Below, one piece after another: positions 41,520 to 55,200 of a DNA stretch of 64,000 bases; the stretch's first letter is position 1; every line of letters begins with the position of its first letter. Under the pieces are notes generated by a model, which saw nothing but the letters and a program-made list of their open reading frames with translations, was not told the origin of the DNA and searched no databases. The DNA lies in the NCBI GenBank assembly GCA_907165065.1, contig OU015541.1, forward strand, positions 434,001-498,000, in the 5' to 3' direction. The position numbers and the translations under genes are program-made. The stretch comes from Caprimulgus europaeus (Eukaryota > Chordata > Aves > Caprimulgiformes > Caprimulgidae).

Positions 41520-44290
41520 CGGCGGCACCGGCCCCGTTCCCGGCCCGCGCGACCGGAAGCGCCGGTCCCTGTGTGCGTCATCAGCCTGCGACGCCCCGGC
41601 TGCGCGCCGGAAGTGGCGCTGCCATGGCAACGGCGGCGGGGGAGGCTGTACCGGACGGGGCGCGGGAACGGGGCCCGGTGCGGGGGAGCCCCGCGGGGAC
41701 ACACGGTGCGCGCTGGGGATGGGCCGTGCGGACAGCGGCCTCCTGCCCGCCGGGCTGCGGGGTGTGGCCTCCCCCGGGCCCCCCGCCGCGGCGGGGCCGA
41801 GCAGGAGCCGGATGCCCACGGTCCGAGGACGGGGCCGGCGGACACCGGAACATTACAGACCCGGCTGCGCTCCCCCCGCGCCTCCGCCGGTTTTTCTGCC
41901 TCCCGGCTGCGTTCAGCCCCACGCCCGGTCTGTGCCGCCGGGTCCCGGGGGGCACAGCGTGGAACGGACACGGCGGGGTGTAGGGACGTGCAGCTCGTGG
42001 GGGAAGGCGGGGAGGGACGATCGGCTCTGGAATAAATCCTAAAGCCATGAAAAGTCAGGCGGCTCCGCCCGGTGCCACCCGGAAGCGGAGCCTGGCGCGG
42101 GTGACCCTGCCTGTGAGACCGGAGCAATCGTGGCTGCGGAGATGAGAACGTTTGTCCTTCCACGATCCGCGCCCTCCTTGTTGCATTATTTTCTATGCCT
42201 GAAATAGAAAAATACCCTCATTGCAGTTCCAGGTGACTTTTTCCTCAAGTCTCTCATCTTTCTGGAATCGTGTTTATCTGGGGGAACTCTCCAAACCAGC
42301 GTTTCTTCGTCCCGTCTAACGTGCGCAGAAGAGACAAGACGACCTGTCTGTTGTTTTCCAGATTATCTTGTCCCGTGTCGTGGTCAGTGAGAAGCTTTTC
42401 TGTTGGGTCAGCTGGAGAGAAATTAAACATTTTCTTTGGTTAATCCCAAATCCCAAGTGGGAATCCCACTTCCATGGGATTTATCTGGATGCTGTGAGCT
42501 CTGTGTCAGCTTAGTCACGATCTGCCCACAGCCCAGCCGTCCCCCGGGGATCCAGGTGCAGGAGCAGAGCCGCTCCTCACCGTGGGCATTTGCTCCTTCT
42601 TCCGGCTGCTTCCTTTTGCAAGTGACCGTGGCACCAGTGTCCGCGAGATCCTGCAACTAAAAAGCGTTTGGAGAGACAATTGACGTTGCTGGTGGGCACG
42701 CAGAGCGAGCCAGGGGCTCTGGTGACACCCCGCTCTCCGGGGACCTGCGCAGCCGTGCGCGATGGGTGCGGGGGTGACCCTGCTCTCTGAGATCTGAGTC
42801 ATGTCGCTGGAACAGGACCTGTGGGATTCATCTCTCCCAGGCGTTTCTTTCAGTGCTGCTGAGGCGTTCTCCTTCATTAGCTCCCTACATATTAACCACG
42901 ATTACGATCTGCTCAGACGGAAACGAGCCAGGGCGATGGCGTCGTTCCCGGGAGGAGGAGCTGCCAGGTGGGCGCGGGGCAGGGGCAGGGGCAGATCTCT
43001 TCTCGGCGGGAGTCCCGGGGCTGGAAGGAGCCCTGCCGTCCCGCAGGTTGTTCCACATGATTTGCTTGCTGCGTGGAAGGGAGGCGGCGCTGCGGACGCG
43101 GCAGGACACGGGTTCCTCCGGGGGGAGTCCTGCTCACGGTGATTAACAGCGACAGCAACGCGCGATAAGCACCGGGCTGTCGGGTTCGGTGGTGGAGCTG
43201 CGAGGCGTGGAACGGTGGATCTCAGCGGGCTTGTGTAGGAATTGCATCTGATTTGAGTCACGGCCACGAGGGGAAGACTAAACCTGTACTTAAAGCATAT
43301 TTCTTGCAACAAGCCCTCTTCCCACACGGATTTGGCAGCATGAGCCGTGCACCTTCCTGCTCCCGAGTCACAGCCCTTGCGCCGCCCCGGCACCGCTTCA
43401 GCGCGACGCTGATGGGAGCTCTTTGAGCAGGAACTTGGCCTTTTCCGTGTTTGTCGAGCGGCACGCGCTCACTTAGAGCTGTGGAAACAATGTCGGGATC
43501 AAACCAACTCGCTCGCCCCACGGCTGCAGATTTAAACTTTGTCTTTTGATCCAGCAAGTCTGACCCATTCCTGCCAGGGGCTGCCGTGTCCTGGCCCGAC
43601 TAGTCCCTAAGTTCTCCTGTAATACTGGTTGCACTTTTGTTTCTGTATAATTCAGGAAGAAATAATCAAATAGGGAAGGACCTATCCTGCAAATAATTAA
43701 ACAGGGAAGGACCATCTTTGCAAATCCCATGTAACACAGCACCGGCCTCTGCCTTCACACACCCGCCAGAGCACTCCCGGGGAAGCGGGAGATGCGCTGG
43801 CAGAGGCAGGGCTGGTGGCGGGACCGGCCCTGTCCGAAGCATCCTGGACCCCGGGGTGGGGATCAGCACAAAGGGACCGGCCGGAACGGAGGCGACGGGC
43901 AGCAGCCGCGGGCAGCCCGGCCTCTTCCCGCCCGGCATCGCGGGGAGGCACCGGCGGTGTCCTGGTTGCTGGGGCCTGGCGGGGATGGTTTGTCCCTGGG
44001 CACTGCTGGGTGGCAGTGATGGGGGTCACAGCCTTCAGCGAGGCGGTGGGCACCCCGTCACGAGCAGCTGTGGAGAACCGGAGAATCCTCCTCCTTGCAG
44101 CCGGGGTTCCCTCTTCCCTCCTCCCTGTTCCTGTGCAGCTGACCCTGGATCCTGCTCCTGCCTTGGTTGTGGGTGGAGAAAGGCAGCTGGAGTGGCTTTT
44201 AGAAAACAGAATTACAGCAAAATGTGGGAGGTCCCTGCAAGTCACCTGCCAGCTGCTTCCTCCCATTCCCAGAGCCGGGCTGCCCGGCAG
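41520..44290. other. DNTTIP1 promoter and 2-kb spacer to the WAP locus
   Basis: CpG-rich DNTTIP1 promoter to about 42.0 kb, then less GC-rich sequence. Within it, two imperfect copies of a roughly 35-bp unit (AGGGAAGGACC ... TGCAAAT) lie at about 43664-43728. No protein gene is recognised. Confidence 0.45.
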
Positions 44291-44294
44291 GAGC

Positions 44295-44300
44295 TTTAAA
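44295..44300 (+). promoter_or_regulatory. TTTAAA box of the GKP-repeat gene
   Basis: TTTAAA lies 40 bp upstream of the ATG at 44340. The same element at nearly the same distance occurs at four other secreted-protein genes in the window. Confidence 0.6.
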
Positions 44301-44339: not shown

Positions 44340-46281
44340 ATGAGGGCGAGAGGCACCGTCCTGCTGGGGCTCCTTGCCCTGTGGGCAGAGCTGCAGGCAG
44401 CACCCACCGCAGGCAAGTACGGGCGCACGGGAACACCCGGCCTCTCTAGATTTTAAGAATATTTTCTGTATTTTCGTGGAATTATAGAATGGTTTGGATT
44501 GGAAAGGGCCTTTAAAATTGATCTGGTCCAACCCCCCTGCCGTGAGCAGGGACATCTTCCACCAGAGCAGTGCTGCTGCTGCTGTTCAGCAATGTGTATT
44601 TAAATGTCTGTTTTCATCCTTGTACCTCTGGAAGCTTCCTGTGAAGAGCTGAAACTCTGTGAGGTTTAGCTCTTGCGTACACTTTATAATCTTCGAGTTC
44701 TGCAAACCTCCTGCCAGGGACGGGGATGGTGGTGGTGCCACCGCACAGGGATGCTCGGGAGGTTTGTCAGTTGGACCAGTGACCATGAGCCCTCCGAAAA
44801 CACCAGCCCCACCAGGGAGCTGCTGCTCTGGGAGAAAGGAAATTCTCAAAGAAGAATTATTTTTCCTTCTCTTACTTTTTTTTTTTTTTTTTTAAAAAAA
44901 AGGCCCAACTTTCAGAGAAGTGATAATGGCATTTCTTTGGAATGAGCAGTGAAGTCATTTTGGGAGCCCTGTTTACAATTTTACAGCACCCCTTCTTTCT
45001 GAACGCTCCTGCCCGTGTGCTGTTTTATTCTGTCCAGACGCCGAGGCAGCAGCAGCTCCGGTGCGGCGGGACCCGGGTGTGCTGCGGCTGATGGAAATGT
45101 GTTGAAGGAACCTGAGTTCCGTTTGGTCTCAGTTTTACAGGCTGGGGGGGAGGCTGGTGCTTTGGGGGTGCCCACATGGGAGCCCTGTGCGGCAACGTGG
45201 GTGCTGATGGGTGGGAGCCGTGGGTGGGAGGGCAGCACAGGGCTGGTGCCCCAGTGCTGACGCTGCTGCTCTCTGCTCCTTTCCAGGGCTCCCCGGAGCA
45301 GCCCCTGCCAGGCGGCCACAGCCCGGGCAGCCGGGAAGCCCTCTGCTGGGGAGGGGCCCTCGGCCTGGGGAGGAGCCCAGCGCGGTGCCCTGTCCGCAGC
45401 CCGGCAGCGTCGCCCCAGGCGGGAAGTGGGAGTCAGGTGCGGAGCGGGTGGGTGAGGACCGGTGCCCACCCGGGGCCGAGCCGGTGGCTGCTGCGACGCC
45501 TGCGCTGGGGAAGAAGCCGGACACTGGGCTGAAGCCTGTGGTGGGGAGCAAGCCCACACTAGCTGGGAAGCCGGACACTGGGAAGAAACCCAGTCCAGGG
45601 AAAAAGCCAGCATGTGGGGGAAAGCCTGAGGCTCAGGAAAAGCCAGAGGTCATAGCAAAACCAGGGACCGGGGGGAAGCCAGACATGGGGGGGAAGCTGG
45701 AGACCAGTGAGAAACCAGTGGCTGAGGGGAAACCAGTGGCTGAGGGGAAACCAGTGCCTGGGGGGAAACCAGTAACCAGTGAGAAACCAGTGGCTGGGGG
45801 GAAACCAGAAACCAGTGAGAAACCAGTGGCTGAGTGGAAACCAGTGGCTGAGGGGAAACCAGTGCCTGGGGGGAAACCAGAGACCAGTGAGAAACCAGTG
45901 GCTGGGGGGAAACCAGAAACCAGTGAGAAACCAGTGCCTGGGGGGAAACCAGAGACCAGTGAGAAACCAGTGGCTGGGGGGAAGCCGGAGGCCGGGGAGA
46001 AACCTGTGCTGGGGGAGAAGCCGCAGTCAGGGGGGAAGCCGGAGAGTGAGGGGAAGCCTGAGAGTGACAAGGGTGACAGTGGGGAGGGTGATGACAATGA
46101 CGATGATGGTGATGATGATGAGAAAAATGATCATGACAATGACAATGGCGATGACAATGACAATGGCGATGACAATGACGATGGTGATGATGATGATGAT
46201 GGTGATGATAATGGCGATGATAACAGCAACAGCAATAGCGACAACAACGGTGATGACAATGGCGATAATGATGACGACGAC

Positions 46282-46313
<32 letters not shown>

Positions 46314-46398
46314 CGACGGAGATGACGATGATGACTATGACGACAATGATGATTACAGTGATGATGATGGTGGTGGCGACGGTGATGACGCTTGGTGA
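44340..46398 (+). CDS. Secreted lysine-proline repeat protein with an Asp-rich tail (REST-like gene)
   Basis: Not a family I can name. Exon 1 (44340-44412) encodes only a signal peptide (MRARGTVLLGLLALW...APTA). Exon 2 (45287-46398) encodes the whole secreted protein; total 394 aa. Residues about 60-120 are Pro/Gly-rich with single GKKP units. Residues about 120-280 are tandem units of the type ETSEKPVAGGKP. Residues 285-394 are almost only Asp, Asn and Gly with some Ser, Glu and Tyr, ending DDAW. The junction keeps frame only with a GC donor (G|GCAAGT, 44413-44414). One signal exon plus one repeat exon is the layout of mammalian semenogelin/trappin-type genes, which also arose in the WAP locus. 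Calcium or mineral binding by the acidic tail is my inference. Confidence 0.8.
44480..44575 (-). mobile_element. CR1 retroposon 3'-end fragment
   Basis: The sequence TATAGAATGGTTTGGATTGG followed by AAAGGGCC and TCCAACCCCCCTGCC is the reverse complement of the well-known 3' end of CR1 LINEs of birds and reptiles. It lies in intron 1 of the GKP-repeat gene and supports an avian source. Confidence 0.85.
44874..44901 (+). repeat. T-run followed by A-run
   Basis: About 20 T followed by 8 A in intron 1 of the GKP-repeat gene. Perhaps a retroposon tail or simple repeat. Confidence 0.8.
46085..46395 (+). repeat. GAT/GAC simple repeat coding the Asp-rich tail
   Basis: About 310 bp of imperfect GATGAC, AATGAC and GGTGAT triplets. 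It is coding in the plus frame (Asp, Asn, Gly). The reverse frames (poly-His, poly-Ile/Val) are shadows. Confidence 0.9.
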
Positions 46399-46548
46399 CT
46401 GGTGCCCCAGGCTGTGTGGAGCGTGTGAAGCGAGGACAGCCCACAGCGGGTGGGCGCAGGGGCGAATGCCCCCAGCCTCCTCCTCTGCCTCACTCTGCCA
46501 GGGCTGGTCCCGGCCACCACTGGCATCGGGCAGGACTTCCTCTTTCCT

Positions 46549-46554
46549 AATAAA
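46549..46554 (+). terminator. Polyadenylation signal of the GKP-repeat gene
   Basis: AATAAA 150 bp after the stop. An acceptor-like CTCTGCCAG near 46500 leaves open an untranslated third exon, as in semenogelin genes. Confidence 0.75.
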
Positions 46555-46559
46555 CCCCA

Positions 46560-47325
46560 CACTGGGCCACCACCTTGGCGTGACAAGCTGTCCCTGGTCA
46601 GTGCCTGGCATGACCAGGTCACCGTGACTGCCCCCGCCCCGGGCATGGGCTCAGCACAGCCCTTTGCACAGTGACGTGACTGTCACCTGTAGAAGAGCCA
46701 CAGGGATGGCCCTGACTGGGCGTCTGCCCAGGGCCAGCTGAGCATCCCTGAGTCAGGAGAGGGGGTTTCATCCATCATCCCCACGATGCCATGCTGTGCT
46801 GTGCCATGCCGTGCTGGCAGCGGGGTGAGGAGCTGGGGTACCGCTGCCCGTGCTGGATGTGGGGGGCAGCCCCAGGTGACTCCCAAGGGCTCAGGACAGC
46901 TGTGACACACTCCTGCTGAGGAGCTGCACCAAGGCGAGGTCAGGGCTGGCTGTGCTGCCATGGCCCTGGGGCAAACCTGGGTCCTGTCAGAGGGCACAAT
47001 GGGGTCTCACCGGGCACCTGCTCCCAGGAGGGTCTCCGGGAATAGGAACGAGCTCGGTCCCAGCAGGGATGGACGGACCCGTGGAGTTTGGGCAGGACTC
47101 ATGTGCAGGTCCCCAGGGACCCACCGGCTGTGGTGGCACAACCCCTGCACGGGACCCCAACCCCCCCACTCAGGGGCTGAAAGTCCCACTGAGGCTGGCA
47201 GGGGCTCATCAGGAGACTGACACAGCAGGAGCCAGCCAGCGTTCATCGCAGACTGGGTTTACTGGAGAGTAGAGGGCACAGAGGCCCCTGTACTCAGCAT
47301 GGAGCTGAGGGCAAGGGGGTGGAGG
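46560..47325. other. Spacer between the GKP-repeat gene and the small secreted-peptide gene
   Basis: GC-rich sequence with no recognised exon. It includes the likely 3' UTR of the minus-strand gene, with a variant AGTAAA near 47250. Confidence 0.4.
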
Positions 47326-47330
47326 TGGGA

Positions 47331-47833
47331 TCAGGGGCACGGGTGCTTGTCCAGCAGCTGACAGGTCCTTCCATGGCTGGCTGTCCGGTGTGGATGTCGG
47401 GTGGCTGCACACACGGGGTCCTCGATCCAGGTCCAGGCAGGGACTAGGTGAATCCTGGGGAGAGACAGCAGCACCCATGTCCCAGGCCCTCGCTTTGGAG
47501 CACATTGGGTGCAGCCATCGGCACTACAGCGGAGCCCTGGGGGCGGGGGCTCCCAAGACCCTGGGCACCCCTCCCAGAGAGCTGTCGGGGGGTCTGCTGC
47601 TCACTTCCACAGCGTGCAAGGATGTGCGGGGAGACAGCCCTGCTCTGCGGGACACTGCACCCTGGCCACGGCCATGCTCGTACCTGTGCACGTGGCCTCT
47701 CACAGTGCTATCCCGCTGGCTCCCTGCGCCCACCCCGCACCCACCCCGCGCCCACCCCACGCTCACCTGTGGACACCAGCCGGGCCCAGAGGCAGCAGAG
47801 CCCCAGGAGCAGGAGCAGCGACAGCAGCCGCAT
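47331..47833 (-). CDS. Candidate small secreted cysteine-containing peptide
   Basis: Exon 1 (47833-47767) is a clear signal-peptide exon, MRLLSLLLLLGLCCLW..., ending in phase 1 at a good donor (ACAG|GTGAGC). The most consistent continuation is 47644-47605 (GCLPAHPCTLW, flanked by CCGCAG and GTGAGC) and 47454-47331 (...EDPVCAATRHP...CQLLDKHPCP, stop TGA). This gives 76 aa with five cysteines after the signal. The downstream exons are short and match no family I know, so they are tentative. A TTTAAA box at 47883-47888 lies 50 bp upstream of the ATG, as in the neighbouring secreted-protein genes. Confidence 0.45.
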
Positions 47834-47882
47834 GGTGCGGGACAGGCAGTGCCGGGGCTGCCTGCCCGGGCACAGGCAGGGG

Positions 47883-47888
47883 TTTAAA
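47883..47888 (-). promoter_or_regulatory. TTTAAA box of the small secreted-peptide gene
   Basis: The palindromic TTTAAA lies 50 bp upstream of the minus-strand ATG at 47833, matching the layout at the other WAP-locus genes. Confidence 0.55.
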
Positions 47889-47899
47889 TCCTCCCGGGG

Positions 47900-50245
47900 C
47901 TGGAGGTTGGTCCCAGTGACCTGCTCTGTGCCCCAGTGCCCAACACGCTCCGTCTGAGCGTGAACCCCCTGCCCCCTCCCTGCCGTGGGCTGCTGCTGCT
48001 GGACAAGCCACACAGGTGCTGCTGCTTGGCACTGGGGTCTGGGCAGCCCAGAGAGCTGTGCCATGCTGTGCTGTGCCACAAGACAAGGGCAGCCAGCACA
48101 GCTTCCCGCTGCAGGGGACAGGTCCCAGCCAGGCGGCAGCAAGGGGCTGGGGGTCCCCGGTGTGGGGCTGGCCCTGCTGAGGCAGTGGAGGTGGCTCCCT
48201 GGCCGGGTGCTGTGGAGCGGCCGTGGTGCCCTGGCACCTCTCCGGGCATTGTTCTGCCTCCAGAACAATCACTGGCTCCCGAGGGACATCCTGTGACTGG
48301 ACACGGTCCACAGCCCTGCGCTACCATCAGCCCCTCAGCCCCCCAGCATGTCCCCACCAGCCAGCACCCACCCAGCCCCACGCCTTGGGGCAGCAGCTGA
48401 GGGCCGGGGCTGGCCAGGGGTGCGGGGTCCTGGTGCTGAGGGCAAGGAGCCAGAGGCTGTGCAGGGGCTGTGGGACTGCGAGGTCATAGCCCTGGGTCCT
48501 GTGTCCTTGCTGGAGCTGTGGTGGGTGCCCAGGTCCCCATCATGAGGTGCTGGAGCTTCCTCTCACCTCCTGCTCCCTTTCATGGGCTGATGTGTCCGGC
48601 CACCCCAGCTCCTGTGTCCACCCGCTGCTGGGGGCTCCAGGCACGGATCTGCGCCAGCACCATCACTTGAGGGACGCAGCCCTTTCCGGAGTCTGGCTGC
48701 ATTTCCCACCCCAGCTCAGCCCCAAAGCTGCCCCCAGTATGGTGCCAAGTGGGAGGTCTGCAAGCGTGCCAGAGCCTGTGCCGTGCCAGCCTGCGTGGGG
48801 CTGCAGGCGGGGCTGCCGGGGCGCGTGTCGCAAGGCTGGAAGCACGGGAGCTGTCGGGACTTTCCCTGCCAGCTCCCTTCCGGGAGAGGCAGGAGGGCTC
48901 GGGCGGGCAGGCTGCCCACACATGCGTGTGCGTGTGCGAGCCAAAGCAGCCAGGTGTGGACACGTGCGTGCGCGTGTGCAGTCCACACTCCATGTGTGTC
49001 CGTGTGTGCCCGTCCGCAGTCCAGGCTGCTGAGTGGCACCACGCGCTTGCCAGCAGCTGCCTCCTTGGGGACCCTGTTCTGCTGGTGTGTCCCTGTGCGT
49101 GGGACAGAGGTGACGCGCAGGTGGGATGACCTGTCCTGGGAGCACACGGAGCCACAAGAGGAGCGGTGGGAAGTGATGGCTCCACCGTGCTGGGGCGTCC
49201 CCTCTGCCCACGGGGGCTGTCCCTGTCGCTGTCCCTGGGTGGGCAGCAGGGACAGTGCCTGGCTTGTGTCAGCCCCGGGGAGCGCGTGTCCCGGCAGGAC
49301 AGTGGGGTCCGTGTGGGGCCAGCTGGGATGTGCTGCAGCCAGGGGGACCCGCTCTGCCCCTCGGCTCCCCCAGCCCCTTTCCTGCCGCACACCCAGGCCG
49401 GGCAGGAGCATCATCCCGGTGCCACAGCCCCGTCCCCGCTCTGTGCCCGCCCTGGGAGGTGCCACATTCCTGGGTGCTCCCTGGGCTGGGCTGCCCTGGT
49501 CGCTATTTCCGCAATCCCCATGGAGGAGTCCCCGTCCCACCGCCCACCCTGACCCTGTGCCCCTCGACCGCCACCAGCGTGTCCCTCCGGCTTTGGTCCC
49601 GCATTGCTCGGGCTCTGTCACGTCGCCGTGTCCCGCGCCGGGGCTGCTGCCGGAGTGTCGGTCCCGGACGCCGGAGGAGAGGCGGGGAGAAGCTGCGGTG
49701 GGGCGCGGGCGGGGCACGGGCAGGTCACGGCACCTCCCAAACCCCACCCAGGTCCGACTTTCCTGGCCGCTCCCCACTGAGCTTTCCTCGCCCTCCGCTT
49801 CCCCCTTGGGACAGTAATTACAGCAGTAATTACAAGGACAATTATTCCTGCTGAATGGGAACAGCTTAATCTGTTTCTCCCTCCTCTCGGCAGGTTTCAC
49901 CCCACGCCCACCCACGGGTGCCGGCGCGATGCCAGGGACCCACCTGCCACCCAGCCCAGCGCTGGGACCCCTGTGCTGCCGTGGGTCTGACCCCTGGCCG
50001 GGAGCGCGGCTGGCTGTGAGCCGGGTCCCGTCCCCAGGAGATGCCACTGGTGTTGCCCCAAGCCCAGCACGGGCACGCTGCTGCTGTGCCGGAGCAGCCG
50101 TCCCGTCTTACCGGTCCCCCCAGCTCGAGGGCTGTGGCTGGGATCGTGCCGGGGAGGCCAGGCCCTGCCTGGGTGCGGCTCGTTACCCACATGGCAGGAA
50201 TTAGCTGGGCTCGGGCGCCAGCCCTGCTCCCTCCGCCCCACCAGT
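47900..50245. other. Spacer with GT-rich and homeodomain-like stretches
   Basis: No gene recognised. A GTGTGCG-type alternating purine-pyrimidine stretch covers about 48917-49012. Two TAATTA motifs 12 bp apart (49815-49820 and 49827-49832), followed by CAATTATT, stand out in GC-rich sequence. Confidence 0.45.
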
Positions 50246-50251
50246 GCACCT

Positions 50252-50257
50252 TAAATC
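50252..50257 (+). promoter_or_regulatory. TTAAAT box of the WAP-Kunitz gene
   Basis: CTTAAATCC lies 46 bp before the ATG at 50303. It is a one-base variant of the TTTAAA box seen at the neighbours; the TTAAATCC part is identical to that at 47883. Confidence 0.5.
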
Positions 50258-50302
50258 CCAGCCCGCCACGCCCGGGGCCCAGACCCAGCTGCCCAGGGCA
50301 CC

Positions 50303-51649
50303 ATGGAGCTGCCTCCCAGCTGCTTCCTCCTCTTCCTCCTCCTCGCAGCCCTGCTCCCCATTGCCACACGGTCTGGCCCAGCCCTGCACGCAGCTGGAAG
50401 AGAGGAGCCGGGGATGGGTGAGTGTGCCTGGGGCACGTCCCGGGGACAGGGATGCTGTGGGTGCTGCTGCCGCCCGGTGCTCCCCACTGCCCTGCGTGGT
50501 GCCGGGCATCTGTGGGGGCACGGGGCTGTGGGCGATGGGGGTCCGGCCCTGGGGGGCTGCTCAGTCCCCAGCTCTGCGACCCTCCCCATTGTCCCCGCCG
50601 CTGTGTCCCACAGTGAAGCCCGGGTACTGCTACCACATCCCGGAGGTGGAGGATCTGCTGGACAAGGACTGTGGCGCCTGCCGCAGCGATGCCTCCTGCT
50701 CCCACTGCACCGGTGACGCCAGCTGCCCCGGTGCCACCAAGTGCTGCCCCAGCAAGTGTGGCTACACGTGCCAGGAGCCGGTGCTGGGTGAGGGCTCAGT
50801 GCGGCGGCGGTGGGGCTCTGGGGCGGCGACATGGCGAGCGCAGGGGTGGGCGAGAGGAGGGGTGAGCCAAGCGAACCAGGAATGGGGTTCCCTGGGGTGC
50901 CTCGAGCTCTTGCTGGGTCCTGCAGACCCCAGGGACACCTCGCTGTGCAGTAGGGAGCACTGGGGCTGCTGGGCGTGGGGCTGGGGCACTGAATCAGCTG
51001 CTGGCAGGAAGGGTTTGTCAGCGAGAGGGGACTGAGCCCTGGGAACACCGAGCCCGGCAGTGTCCCTGTCCCATCCTGGCTCAGCCCGTCCCCCTCGGAC
51101 CACGCAGATTTCTGCTACCTGCCCTCGGTCTGCGGGAGCTGCAAGGCGCTCTTCCGCCGCTTCTTCTTCAACGCCTCCAGCCAGCAGTGCGAGGAGTTCA
51201 TCTACGGCGGCTGCGGTGGCAACAGGAACAACTTCGAGACCAAGGGAGAGTGCTTCCAGGCCTGCTCCCACATCGGTAACTAGCCATGTGCCGCGTGCCT
51301 TGGCCGGCAGCTGCTCCTGCCCGTGGCCATGTCCAGCCCAGCCCTGGCCCTCACCCTTCGTCTCTCAGTTCCAGGTGCCAATAGTGGCAGCCCGGGGAGT
51401 GCAGTGGCCTCTGCCCGGCCCCTGCCTGGTGGAAACTGCTGCCAGCAGCCAGGTCCCCGTCCCCGCAGGCAGCTGTTCCCCGCGGGGCTGGCAGTGGTGG
51501 GCACTGCTGCCCAGCGCAGCCGTGCTGGGGGCTCGCCCGGGGATGCTCGCCGGCCCAAGGACAGGGACATGTGCCCATGGGGGCACAGCTGCCCCGTCCT
51601 ACACCGTGGTGCACGGCTGGAGGAGCCTGGCCCTCCCCTGGGGCTGTGA
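50303..51649 (+). CDS. WAP-Kunitz secreted protease inhibitor (ovocalyxin-25/EPPIN-like)
   Basis: Exons: 50303-50417 (signal peptide, [15 protein letters not shown]), 50614-50787 (WAP domain), 51108-51275 (Kunitz domain) and 51369-51649 (basic, Pro/Arg-rich tail); 245 aa. The WAP domain has ten cysteines instead of eight; an inserted [11 protein letters not shown] carries the extra pair. The Kunitz domain keeps FIYGGCGGN and the six standard cysteines, with Lys after Cys2 (P1), suggesting a trypsin-like target, plus an extra Cys in SVCGSC. If the last donor (ATCG|GTAAC) is not used, TAG follows at once and the protein is 154 aa. The domain order WAP-Kunitz and size of about 25 kDa match eggshell ovocalyxin-25; EPPIN and WFDC8 are the mammalian relatives. 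Confidence 0.85.
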
Positions 51650-52287: not shown

Positions 52288-55200
52288 TCACACGGTGTCT
52301 GAAAAGGAGGACGTGATTTCAGGGAGCCCCAGGGTGAGGGACCATCGGCCACGGCTGCAGCCAAGCACGGCCGGCTCTGGCGAGAGCTTCATCCCACTCC
52401 GTGTCCCTTCGGGTCCCCTCGCCCCAAAGGCACATCTCTGCCGGGAGCAGAGTGGCAGGGCAGCAGCAGGAGCCAGTCCTGCGGCGATGGCGAGCCGGGA
52501 GCATGCTGAGGGCTGCGCCCCAGTGCCAGCCCCGGTTGGCAGCCCTGGGCCCCCTTACCACCAGGCACCCGCGTGCAGACGTGGCCGCAGCCATTGCTGC
52601 AGCACTTGTGGCCCCAGGGACACTCCTCATCAAGGCTGCACAGGTCCAGGCATGTCCTGTGGCCCCTGGGGACGGGGCATGCTCCCTCCTTGCCTGCAAG
52701 GCACAGCACCCCGCCATGGGAGGGGTGACTGGGGGGTCACCCCCGGCTCCCAGGGCAACACCTGGGTCCTGGCTGGCTGAGCTGGCTCTCACCTCCGGGA
52801 ACATCCATGCAGACGTGGCCACAGCTGGTGCGGGTGCACCTCTGTCCCCAGGGACACTGCGAGTCAGCCTCGCACTCCTCTGTGCACTGCTTGGCACCGA
52901 GCCGTGGCACAACCACAGCATCACGCTCTGCGGGCAGGAGAGGACAGTCACATGGCAGCTCTGAGCTGAGGCTGTGTGTGCTCATCACTTGCATGGAAAG
53001 AGAGGGAAGCATGTGAAGAAGGGTGGGGACAGATCAAATCCCTGGAGCAGGGAGCGGGATCCCATGGGCACAGCTGCTTCAGCAGCCCCTGGCATGTGGC
53101 ACCAGTGTGGTGATGGCACAGGGTGCTCACTGGTGAGGGAGGGCCAGGATGTCCCTGCAGGGTCAGTGCTGGGGGACCCTAGGCTCTGCCCCCTCTGGGC
53201 TCAGCCGGGTGGGGGGACCCATGTCCTGGTGCATGGGGCTCACCTTGCAGAGAGGCCGGGGTGCAGACGTGGCCACAGCCATTGCTGCAGCACTTGTGGC
53301 CCCAGGGACACTCCTCATCGAAGCTGCACAGGTCCAGGCACGTCCCCCCGTCCCTGGGGATGGGGCACACTCCCACTCTGCCTGCAAGGCAAGCACCTGC
53401 CTGGGGGGCAGCCGACCAGGGACACCCCACCGCGGGGCACCCCGGGGGTCTGGCTGTCCCTCACCTCCGGGGATGTCCATGCAGACGCGGCCGCAGCCGG
53501 TGCTGGTGCATCTCTGTCCCCAGGGACACTGTGTGTCAGCCTCACACTCCTCTGCACACCATTCGCTGGCCCTGTCCTGGCTCTCTGCAGGGGCACGGTG
53601 ACCCGCTGTCACCTGGGGGACTGGTGGCTGGCTCCCCCCGGGACAGTGTGCTCCTGCTACCTCTGGGCACGGCCACGCACTCCCAGGTGCAGCCGGTGTC
53701 GCAGCACTTCTGCTCTCGCCCGCAGACACCGTCATCCAGGCAGGAGCTCGGGCGCCTGCGGCGGGGGTCCCAGCACGGCTGTGCCCGGGGGCACACCCCG
53801 GGGTGCTCTGCGGGAGGAGGGATTGCAGGCGAGGGCGCGGGGTCTCCGCGTGTTCCGGTCCGGCTCACGTGCCGCTGCCCGGTGCCGGTGGCCGGGCTGC
53901 CCGCGCTCACCTCTGGCAGGGCGGGCGCAGCGCATGGCGCAGCCGGAGAAGCAGCACTTCTCCTGCCGGGGACAGTCCCTGTCGTGGGTGCAGGAATCCT
54001 CCTCCGTGCACGGCTCTGGCGGCTGCCGCGGCCTCACCTTCGGGCACTCGCCGGGTTTGTCTGAGGGGGCGGGGAGGGGCAGCACCGGAGGTGTCTGAGC
54101 AACTGCCCTGCGGCAGCATCACCCACACCGTGGGAGGTTTGCTGGTGTGCCCGGTGAAGTGCAGCACCGCCGAGCTGGTGACCGTCCCCTCACCTTGTTC
54201 GGGGGCCGAGCACACGTGGCCACATCTGCTGCTGCAGCACTTCTCAGCCCCTGGGCACTGCCAGTCCCCGGTGCAGGCGGTGCCGCAAGGGGCCGTGGCT
54301 GTTGGTGCCTCCTCGGCCAAGGGGCAGATGCCTGGTTTCTCTGGAGGGCAGGAGGCAGCGGGGCTGGGGACGCGGGGGGCAATGGTGGGTGTCCCCCACC
54401 CAGACCCACAGCCCCAGGAGCTGGGGGGTCCCCACCCTGCCTGGCGTGGGGCTGAGCAGCTCGCACCTTGGGATGGGGACAGGCAGACATAGTCGCAGCC
54501 GCGCAGGCAGCACTTTTCCTCGCCGGGGCACTCGGCGTCGTGCCAGCACCGGGCTCTGCAGTCATAACTGGGGAACAGCCCGGCACGAGCCGGGCAGAAG
54601 CCGGCTTTCTCTGCAGGGCATGGTGCGGGGTGGCTGCAGTGACCCCGGGCCTGGCTACATGGACCCGCACGGACCTGCACGGACCCACACCACAGCCCAG
54701 CCACCCTCGTGGGGCACACAGCCCCCTCGGAACTGCTGCCCTTCAGCACCGCAGCCCCTTGGCGCCACAGCCCCTTGCCACCGTGGCCAAGGGTGCACCG
54801 GGCACCGCAGCACATCTTTGCCCCACGGCAGTGCTCCTCTTGTGGGAACCACGAGGCTGGCACCAGACCCCACTGCCCAGGGGTACGGGACTGTGGGGAG
54901 GAGCTGGCCTTGCCCCCAGGGCTCACCAGATTCAGCCACCCCCCCGTGTCCCACCTTGGTGCTTGGTGCTGCATAGCCCTGTGCACCGGCCGCCGCAGCA
55001 CCTCTCCCCGCTGCCGCAGTCTCCATCGCTTTGGCACCTCGTCCCCTCCTGCCAGGCTGGCGCAGCTGTGGGGGCCCCTGCGAGGGAGTTGGCTCTGTAG
55101 GGCCAGGGATGCCAGCAGGGACCAGGACACCTCCGTCCCCTCCGTCAGTCCTGGGCTGCCACCCAGCCCAGCTCCTGCCCCAGCCGTGGCACTCACCTGC

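Follow-up and report, generated by a model that had tools for sequence, protein, structure and literature searches.

The window, by which we mean the whole analysed stretch of 64,000 nucleotides from Caprimulgus europaeus, carries ACOT8, SNX21, TNNC2, UBE2C, DNTTIP1, a candidate gene and a gene with a WAP and a Kunitz domain, in that order; positions above 64000 continue the window numbering past its end. The non-WAP neighbours were named from Pfam domains for four genes and from short motifs. The gene directly before the candidate is presumably DNTTIP1, as four of eight DNTTIP1 motifs match with at most one mismatch and in order on the minus strand; a further match to a DNTTIP1 motif at 44278 was set aside as chance. 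The neighbours are:

About 25.6 kb, plus strand: ACOT8
29.0 kb, minus strand: SNX21
32.7 kb, plus strand: TNNC2
36.2-35.8 kb, minus strand: UBE2C
41.4-37.9 kb, minus strand: DNTTIP1, directly before the candidate gene
50303 (signal exon) to 51280, plus strand: WAP and Kunitz gene (ovocalyxin-25-like, from Pfam), downstream of the candidate

In the ovocalyxin-25-like gene, Pfam finds a WAP domain in 50586-50804 (E 4e-6) and a Kunitz domain in 51107-51280 (E 3e-18), and the gene has a signal exon of its own at 50303, with a phase-1 donor, and a TTAAAT element. Beyond it, further WAP patterns occur, those at 52.6-64.2 kb on the minus strand and those at 70.8-71.6 kb on the plus strand. The setting described in an earlier note on this DNA, a WAP locus with DNTTIP1 on one side and an ovocalyxin-25-like gene downstream, is thus borne out by Pfam and motif matches. 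Two WAP domains at 52575-53391 on the minus strand, about 0.7 kb apart, are so much alike that an exon or a gene of the WAP cluster seems to have been duplicated recently. Around the candidate itself (41.5-50.3 kb), four queries for WAP or Kunitz remnants gave nothing significant, the best E being 0.044. The opposite strand holds a signal exon, MRLLSLLLLLGLCCLWARLVST, at 47833-47767, with a phase-1 donor (CAG/GTGAGC) and TTTAAA upstream. No WAP or Kunitz exon was found downstream of it, and the acceptors scanned within 1.4 kb give short products only, one of them of 37 residues with three Cys; it is possibly another small secreted gene.

The candidate gene, all on the plus strand, is laid out as follows:

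44295-44300, plus strand: TTTAAA core-promoter-like element, 40-45 nt before the ATG
44340-44412, plus strand: exon 1, coding for the signal peptide MRARGTVLLGLLALWAELQA and the first mature residues, ending in phase 1
44413-45286, plus strand: intron with GC donor CAG/GCAAGT and pyrimidine-rich acceptor TTTCCAG
45287-46398, plus strand: exon 2, coding for the remaining mature protein
45287-45513, plus strand: Pro/Gly-rich linker, part of residues 21-100
45514-46071, plus strand: Lys-Pro array of 31 hexads KPxxxx, residues 101-286
46072-46395, plus strand: Asp/Asn/Gly tail, 108 residues
46396-46398, plus strand: TGA stop
46549-46554, plus strand: AATAAA polyadenylation signal

The earlier note had already given the span 44340-46398 and a splice from 44412 to 45287, and these coordinates hold, with the ATG at 44340, an in-phase splice and the stop at 46396-46398; the donor is GC rather than GT, though otherwise consensus-like. 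Exon 1 contributes 73 coding bases and ends in phase 1, and within the intron a branch-point-like TGCTGAC lies at 45255-45261. A scan for acceptors from 44471 to 50400 (pyrimidine fraction of at least 0.8, joined product above 60 residues) listed six, among which the one at 45287 gives the longest product, 370 residues after exon 1, the runner-up giving 263. Intron 1 also contains, at about 44480-44620, sequence that resembles a fragment of a CR1 retroelement and may be one.

The conceptual protein has 394 residues and consists of a signal peptide, probably cleaved after residue 20, the linker (21-100), the array (101-286) and the tail. For its mature form, a mass of 37.9 kDa, a pI of 4.07 and a net charge of -57 were calculated, the array contributing +6 and the tail -64. 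A Pfam scan of the model returned no family at E<=1: there is neither a WAP four-disulfide domain, the protein having three Cys, nor a Kunitz domain, which could be acquired only through a splice to the neighbour's Kunitz exon. The linker around Cys60 and Cys84 had been considered as a decayed WAP domain, an idea dropped in view of the empty Pfam result.

Where the length of a repeat unit is divisible by three, an open frame comes cheaply, and for this reason the Lys-Pro codons were examined. Among 5000 order-1 Markov sequences for each block, 49% kept the frame of the linker open and 0.6% that of the array; none did so for the tail, which tells little, since GAT repeated in that frame contains no stop in any case. 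Long open frames of 279 and 283 residues also run over the same stretch on the other strand and in another plus frame. The open frame alone is therefore weak evidence, and the real evidence is the codon pattern of the array. The KPx/GGKP repeats reported earlier are indeed Lys-Pro repeats, more exactly 31 hexads KPxxxx of 18 nt each, with no indel across the 31 units. In their Lys and Pro codons, a minority base occurs in one of 124 cells at positions 1 and 2, compared with 25 of 62 at position 3, and across the 16 outer units the four Lys/Pro position-1/2 columns are the most conserved set among 3060. As the units were copied from each other, these cells are not independent, and changes were therefore counted on a tree of the units: by parsimony, the four position-1/2 columns changed once and the two position-3 columns 12 times (p=1.7e-5), and on a tree built from the other columns the counts at the Lys/Pro codons were 1 and 14 (p=2.2e-6), statistics that come from one genome and a tree of short units and in which CpG in CCG codons may inflate third-position change. 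The other four codons of the unit, the spacers, changed at a similar rate at all positions (42 changes in 8 columns against 20 in 4, or 41 against 19 on the second tree). This codon-phased pattern indicates selection on a Lys-Pro pair at every sixth residue in this frame, with unselected spacers, and it argues for a real gene.

Units 12-26 in the middle of the array (45712-45981) are almost homogeneous, with higher-order periods of 36 and 108 nt, which is a sign of recent amplification and makes length polymorphism probable. It had also been considered that the hexad grew from the 'KPG' with which WAP exons start; the likeness covers three residues alone and no such origin is claimed.

The tail is of another kind. 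The 110 Asp-rich residues of the earlier note are Asp-rich as described, though they number 108, of which 63 are Asp. When the tail, less its last two codons, is compared with a GAT ancestor, transitions number 22 at the first codon position, 21 at the second and 35 at the third (p=0.10), and transversions 3, 0 and 5 (p=0.09), so that its codons show no significant constraint at the codon level (p=0.10). It looks like an old, drifted GAT microsatellite, and its acidity can accordingly be explained without selection. Asp-rich mineral-binding proteins are known as a class, which the tail resembles in composition alone while fitting a drifting GAT microsatellite. The mineral binding once suggested for it is thus unsupported, given codons without significant constraint, although the tail may still be of some use.

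These results bear on the view that exon 2 is a non-coding minisatellite beside a GAT microsatellite, open by chance behind a remnant signal exon. Units divisible by three easily stay open, one further plus frame is open in the linker and likewise in the tail, with the long frames already mentioned elsewhere over the stretch, the tail shows no significant codon constraint and protein searches returned no homologue of exon 2, all of which speaks for such a view. It would leave unexplained why Lys-Pro is conserved in codon phase while third positions are free, why 31 units have gathered no indel, and why an in-phase acceptor with a branch-point-like motif, a stop and AATAAA follow in order. We consider it unlikely, and the candidate is probably a gene.

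A second line of evidence comes from the kinship of exon 1 within the locus. It was compared, in register from the ATG, with 214 ATG-started hydrophobic frames within 124 kb, all of them bird sequences of this locus. The three best lie on the minus strand at 68196, 57786 and 61420, with 53, 52 and 50 identities in 85 bases (mean 26.5, sd 5.6); since most of the 214 frames are not real signal exons, shared Leu-rich coding may explain part of this likeness. A fourth similar exon, at 64606 on the minus strand, gives the best local score, and one at 70462 on the plus strand is moderately similar (38/85). In a shuffle test covering eight regions, none of 300 shuffles reached the alignments of exon 1 with 57786 and 68196, while the signal exons at 47833 (minus strand) and 50303 (plus strand) were not significantly similar, 18 and 195 of 300 shuffles scoring as high. 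Each of the four similar exons (68196, 57786, 61420 and 64606) is followed on its own strand by WAP exons, in gene models that are partly established. A phase-1 donor is present in seven of the eight signal exons listed, five of these having been chosen by scans that required such a donor; where none was required, 64606 and 70462 have it and 61420 does not. TTTAAA-like elements precede the other listed signal exons, five of the eight having been chosen by scans for a donor or such an element. The likeness of exon 1 to signal exons upstream of WAP exons also argues for a real gene.

In protein databases exon 1 matches four entries, P0001, P0004, P0005 and P0006, with weak database E-values of 0.0067 to 0.084. 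P0001 and P0006 carry the label 'lgn' (taken as Logan), P0004 comes from JGI/ENA and P0005 is a prediction from the chimney swift, Chaetura pelagica. Searched by tblastn against the window, the exon-1 part of P0005 gives E 1.8e-12, and P0001, P0004 and P0006 give 1.4e-17 or better in alignments that include bases upstream of exon 1. The segment LLGLLALWAELQAAPTAG is identical in all four and in the window. In P0001, the promoter side is about as conserved as exon 1, so conservation of exon 1 alone is no proof of coding selection.

For exon 2, protein database searches returned no homologue, though the database contains at least one bird prediction. Matches to a Vicia faba protein and to nucleolin, from a search that scored just the 8000 candidates with the most words in common, were rejected as unrelated RNA-binding-domain proteins with Lys/Pro-rich stretches. 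In the candidate's own genome, no close paralogue appeared among the matches scored (134 of 224 candidates). A protein search of that genome gave 49 matches, namely exon 2 (the best), exon 1 and 47 others with 20-50% identity, whose best E was 2.4e-16 at 26% and one of which lay on the array's opposite strand; we read these 47 as probable low-complexity likenesses.

The swift entry P0005 is annotated as 'kunitz-type protease inhibitor 4' ('SPINT4') and joins an exon-1-type signal exon to a Kunitz domain, which raises another possibility: that the downstream WAP/Kunitz (ovocalyxin-25/'SPINT4') gene uses exon 1 as an alternative first exon, for a true product made up of signal peptide and Kunitz domain, the Lys-Pro/Asp exon being unused or a minor terminal exon. 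The signal part of P0005 matches exon 1 in 25 of 28 residues and its Kunitz domain matches window 51107-51280 in 56 of 57, so that the swift sequence is closer to the neighbour's Kunitz domain than to the candidate's exon 1. As the end of exon 1 and the start of the Kunitz exon at 51108 are both in phase 1, such a splice would be in frame. Yet the Kunitz gene of the window, with its own signal exon and TTAAAT element, makes the exon at 44340 superfluous there, and selection on the Lys-Pro codons is unexpected for an unused stretch. P0005 is, moreover, a computed prediction, which keeps the residues GKYG by reading past the GC donor; this renders its junction doubtful and suggests that a GC donor was missed. 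It may represent either a true swift splice or a prediction that bridges a gap in the assembly or the model. We hold this use of exon 1 to be rather unlikely, though a serious contender. We favour, with slightly better than even confidence, a gene of the REST type that arose within a bird WAP locus and whose product is a disordered secreted polymer in which trypsin could not cut after most array lysines, even though its GC donor is of a rare type and the swift prediction goes from exon 1 straight to the Kunitz exon, leaving out exon 2.

With the REST genes (semenogelins, rodent Svs2-6, guinea pig Svp5 and rabbit SVP200), the candidate shares the WAP-type locus, the WAP-like signal exon, the phase-1 junction and one large, repeat-built main exon without an inhibitor domain; its own are its bird host, its place on the DNTTIP1 side, the lack of an identified third non-coding exon, few Gln, the Lys-Pro hexads and the Asp tail. 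Transcription in the seminal vesicle is a further mark of the REST family, and birds are not known to have seminal vesicles. According to the available text of two papers, REST and WFDC genes are linked by a conserved exon 1 and a phase-1 second exon, the second exons being unrelated (PMC3209443, PMC7556508). The predicted model has a signal exon and one phase-1 main exon, and its exon 1 resembles WFDC exon 1 as measured against bird WAP-locus exons rather than mammalian REST genes. The layout had been described as exactly that of semenogelin and trappin genes, which holds for the signal exon, the single main exon and the phase-1 junction; in most mammalian REST genes as described, however, these are followed by a third exon, which is non-coding, consists of 3' non-translated sequence and is conserved in the family (PMC3209443, available text). 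Guinea pig Svp5 has two exons and no third (PMC7556508, available text). In the search for a third exon here, 46396-46600 matched the rest of the 124-kb stretch over 13-14 nt only, and AATAAA follows the stop without need for a further exon. The REST locus of Glires is bounded by Matn4 and Kcns1 (PMC7556508, available text), whereas the candidate adjoins DNTTIP1, on a side of the locus that is not semenogelin's place. Because no conserved third exon was found and the locus interval is another, and with seminal-vesicle expression as a further family trait, we do not file the candidate as a member of REST.

Direct orthology to mammalian semenogelin through the amniote ancestor is very improbable. 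The layouts are similar, and exon 1 has 73 coding nt in rabbit SVP200 as well (60+13; PMC7556508, available text). The sublocus differs, however, with the DNTTIP1 side here against Matn4-Kcns1 in Glires (PMC7556508), and semenogelins are counted with the genes whose origin lies in the eutherian radiation (PMC13354781, available text). Nor does any semenogelin occur among the protein-database matches.

Trappin repeats contain Gln; the candidate's are KPxxxx, and it lacks the WAP domain of the trappin-2/elafin precursor (PI3). Hexapeptide repeats after the signal exon and the WAP locus are common to both (PMC7556508, available text). With Kunitz genes of the SPINT4 type, it shares the locus and the phase-1 second exon (PMC3209443, available text), as well as a signal exon that the swift 'SPINT4' prediction also uses, and it differs in an exon 2 without a Kunitz domain.

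Published work on related genes gives some idea of where such a protein might act. Ovocalyxin-25, called WAP in the paper concerned, ranks with the most highly expressed genes in the hen uterus (PMC7385972, available text), a bird 'SPINT4' is one of the transcripts that were checked in the sperm-storage tubules of turkey (PMC10801083, available text), and the mammalian Kunitz relatives are epididymal (PMC3209443, available text). The earlier proposal of an eggshell role by analogy is weakened by the report, in the accessible part of PMC4666066, that ovocalyxin-25 is found in no eggshell matrix other than that of chicken. An Asp-rich or Lys-Pro eggshell protein was found neither in the available text of PMC4666066 and PMC4550075 nor in the accessible eggshell proteome literature searched, and in that of PMC8144736 'aspartic acid-rich' is applied to the ASARM motif only. 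A term search of the main text of a quail seminal-foam paper found nothing of the kind (PMC12853081), and in the accessible part of PMC5765365 semenogelin occurs in the reference list only. We found no published report of such a gene in the accessible portion of the open-licence literature searched.

The predicted gene is probably of the REST type in its anatomy and apparent origin, if it is expressed. Its history would be, much as for the semen-clotting proteins of mammals, that a WAP-locus signal exon, as sequence similarity suggests, was retained, while the inhibitor exon was probably replaced by a fast-expanding repeat exon: the two-exon anatomy is seen in the model, and the replacement is the event that would account for it. 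The product would be a secreted polymer of about 38 kDa, intrinsically disordered by its composition. Selection, to judge from codon statistics in one genome, appears to keep one Lys-Pro per six residues while the four spacer residues drift.

Trypsin cuts Lys-Pro bonds poorly, and 30 of the 34 Lys in the array stand directly before Pro. In silico digestion of the mature protein leaves 117 of 374 residues in peptides of 7-30 residues, so a search for tryptic peptides would see little of it. We speculate that evenly spaced lysines, nearly each before Pro, resist the trypsin-like proteases of a secretion, and that they serve as amines for transglutaminase cross-linking or bind anionic glycans or proteins. 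The hexapeptide repeats of trappin-2 are reported to anchor that protein by transglutaminase (PMC7556508, available text). With its two Gln, the array could hardly by itself serve as a Gln donor for transglutaminase, and mainly the Lys half of the chemistry is available to it. The Asp-rich tail, with its charge of -64, may be a passive block of variable length that binds calcium and water. A reproductive-tract or other mucosal gel would be the likeliest site, because related genes act there, ovocalyxin-25 in the hen uterus and the mammalian genes in the seminal vesicle and epididymis. A bolder version, possible but doubtful, is that of an independent bird gene of the REST type whose WAP signal exon, selected, largely trypsin-resistant Lys-Pro ladder and polyanionic tail yield a two-block polyelectrolyte, cross-linking or coacervating in egg or reproductive secretions and missed by tryptic proteomics.

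If the gene is expressed, the WAP locus would more than once have converted an inhibitor gene into one for a repeat protein, and the same route, in which the signal exon is kept and a repeat exon expanded, would have been taken outside placental mammals. The candidate would then offer a testable case of inhibitor-to-repeat conversion with a simple selected motif, and would point to a type of secreted protein that would largely go undetected when egg and semen are studied by standard tryptic proteomics.
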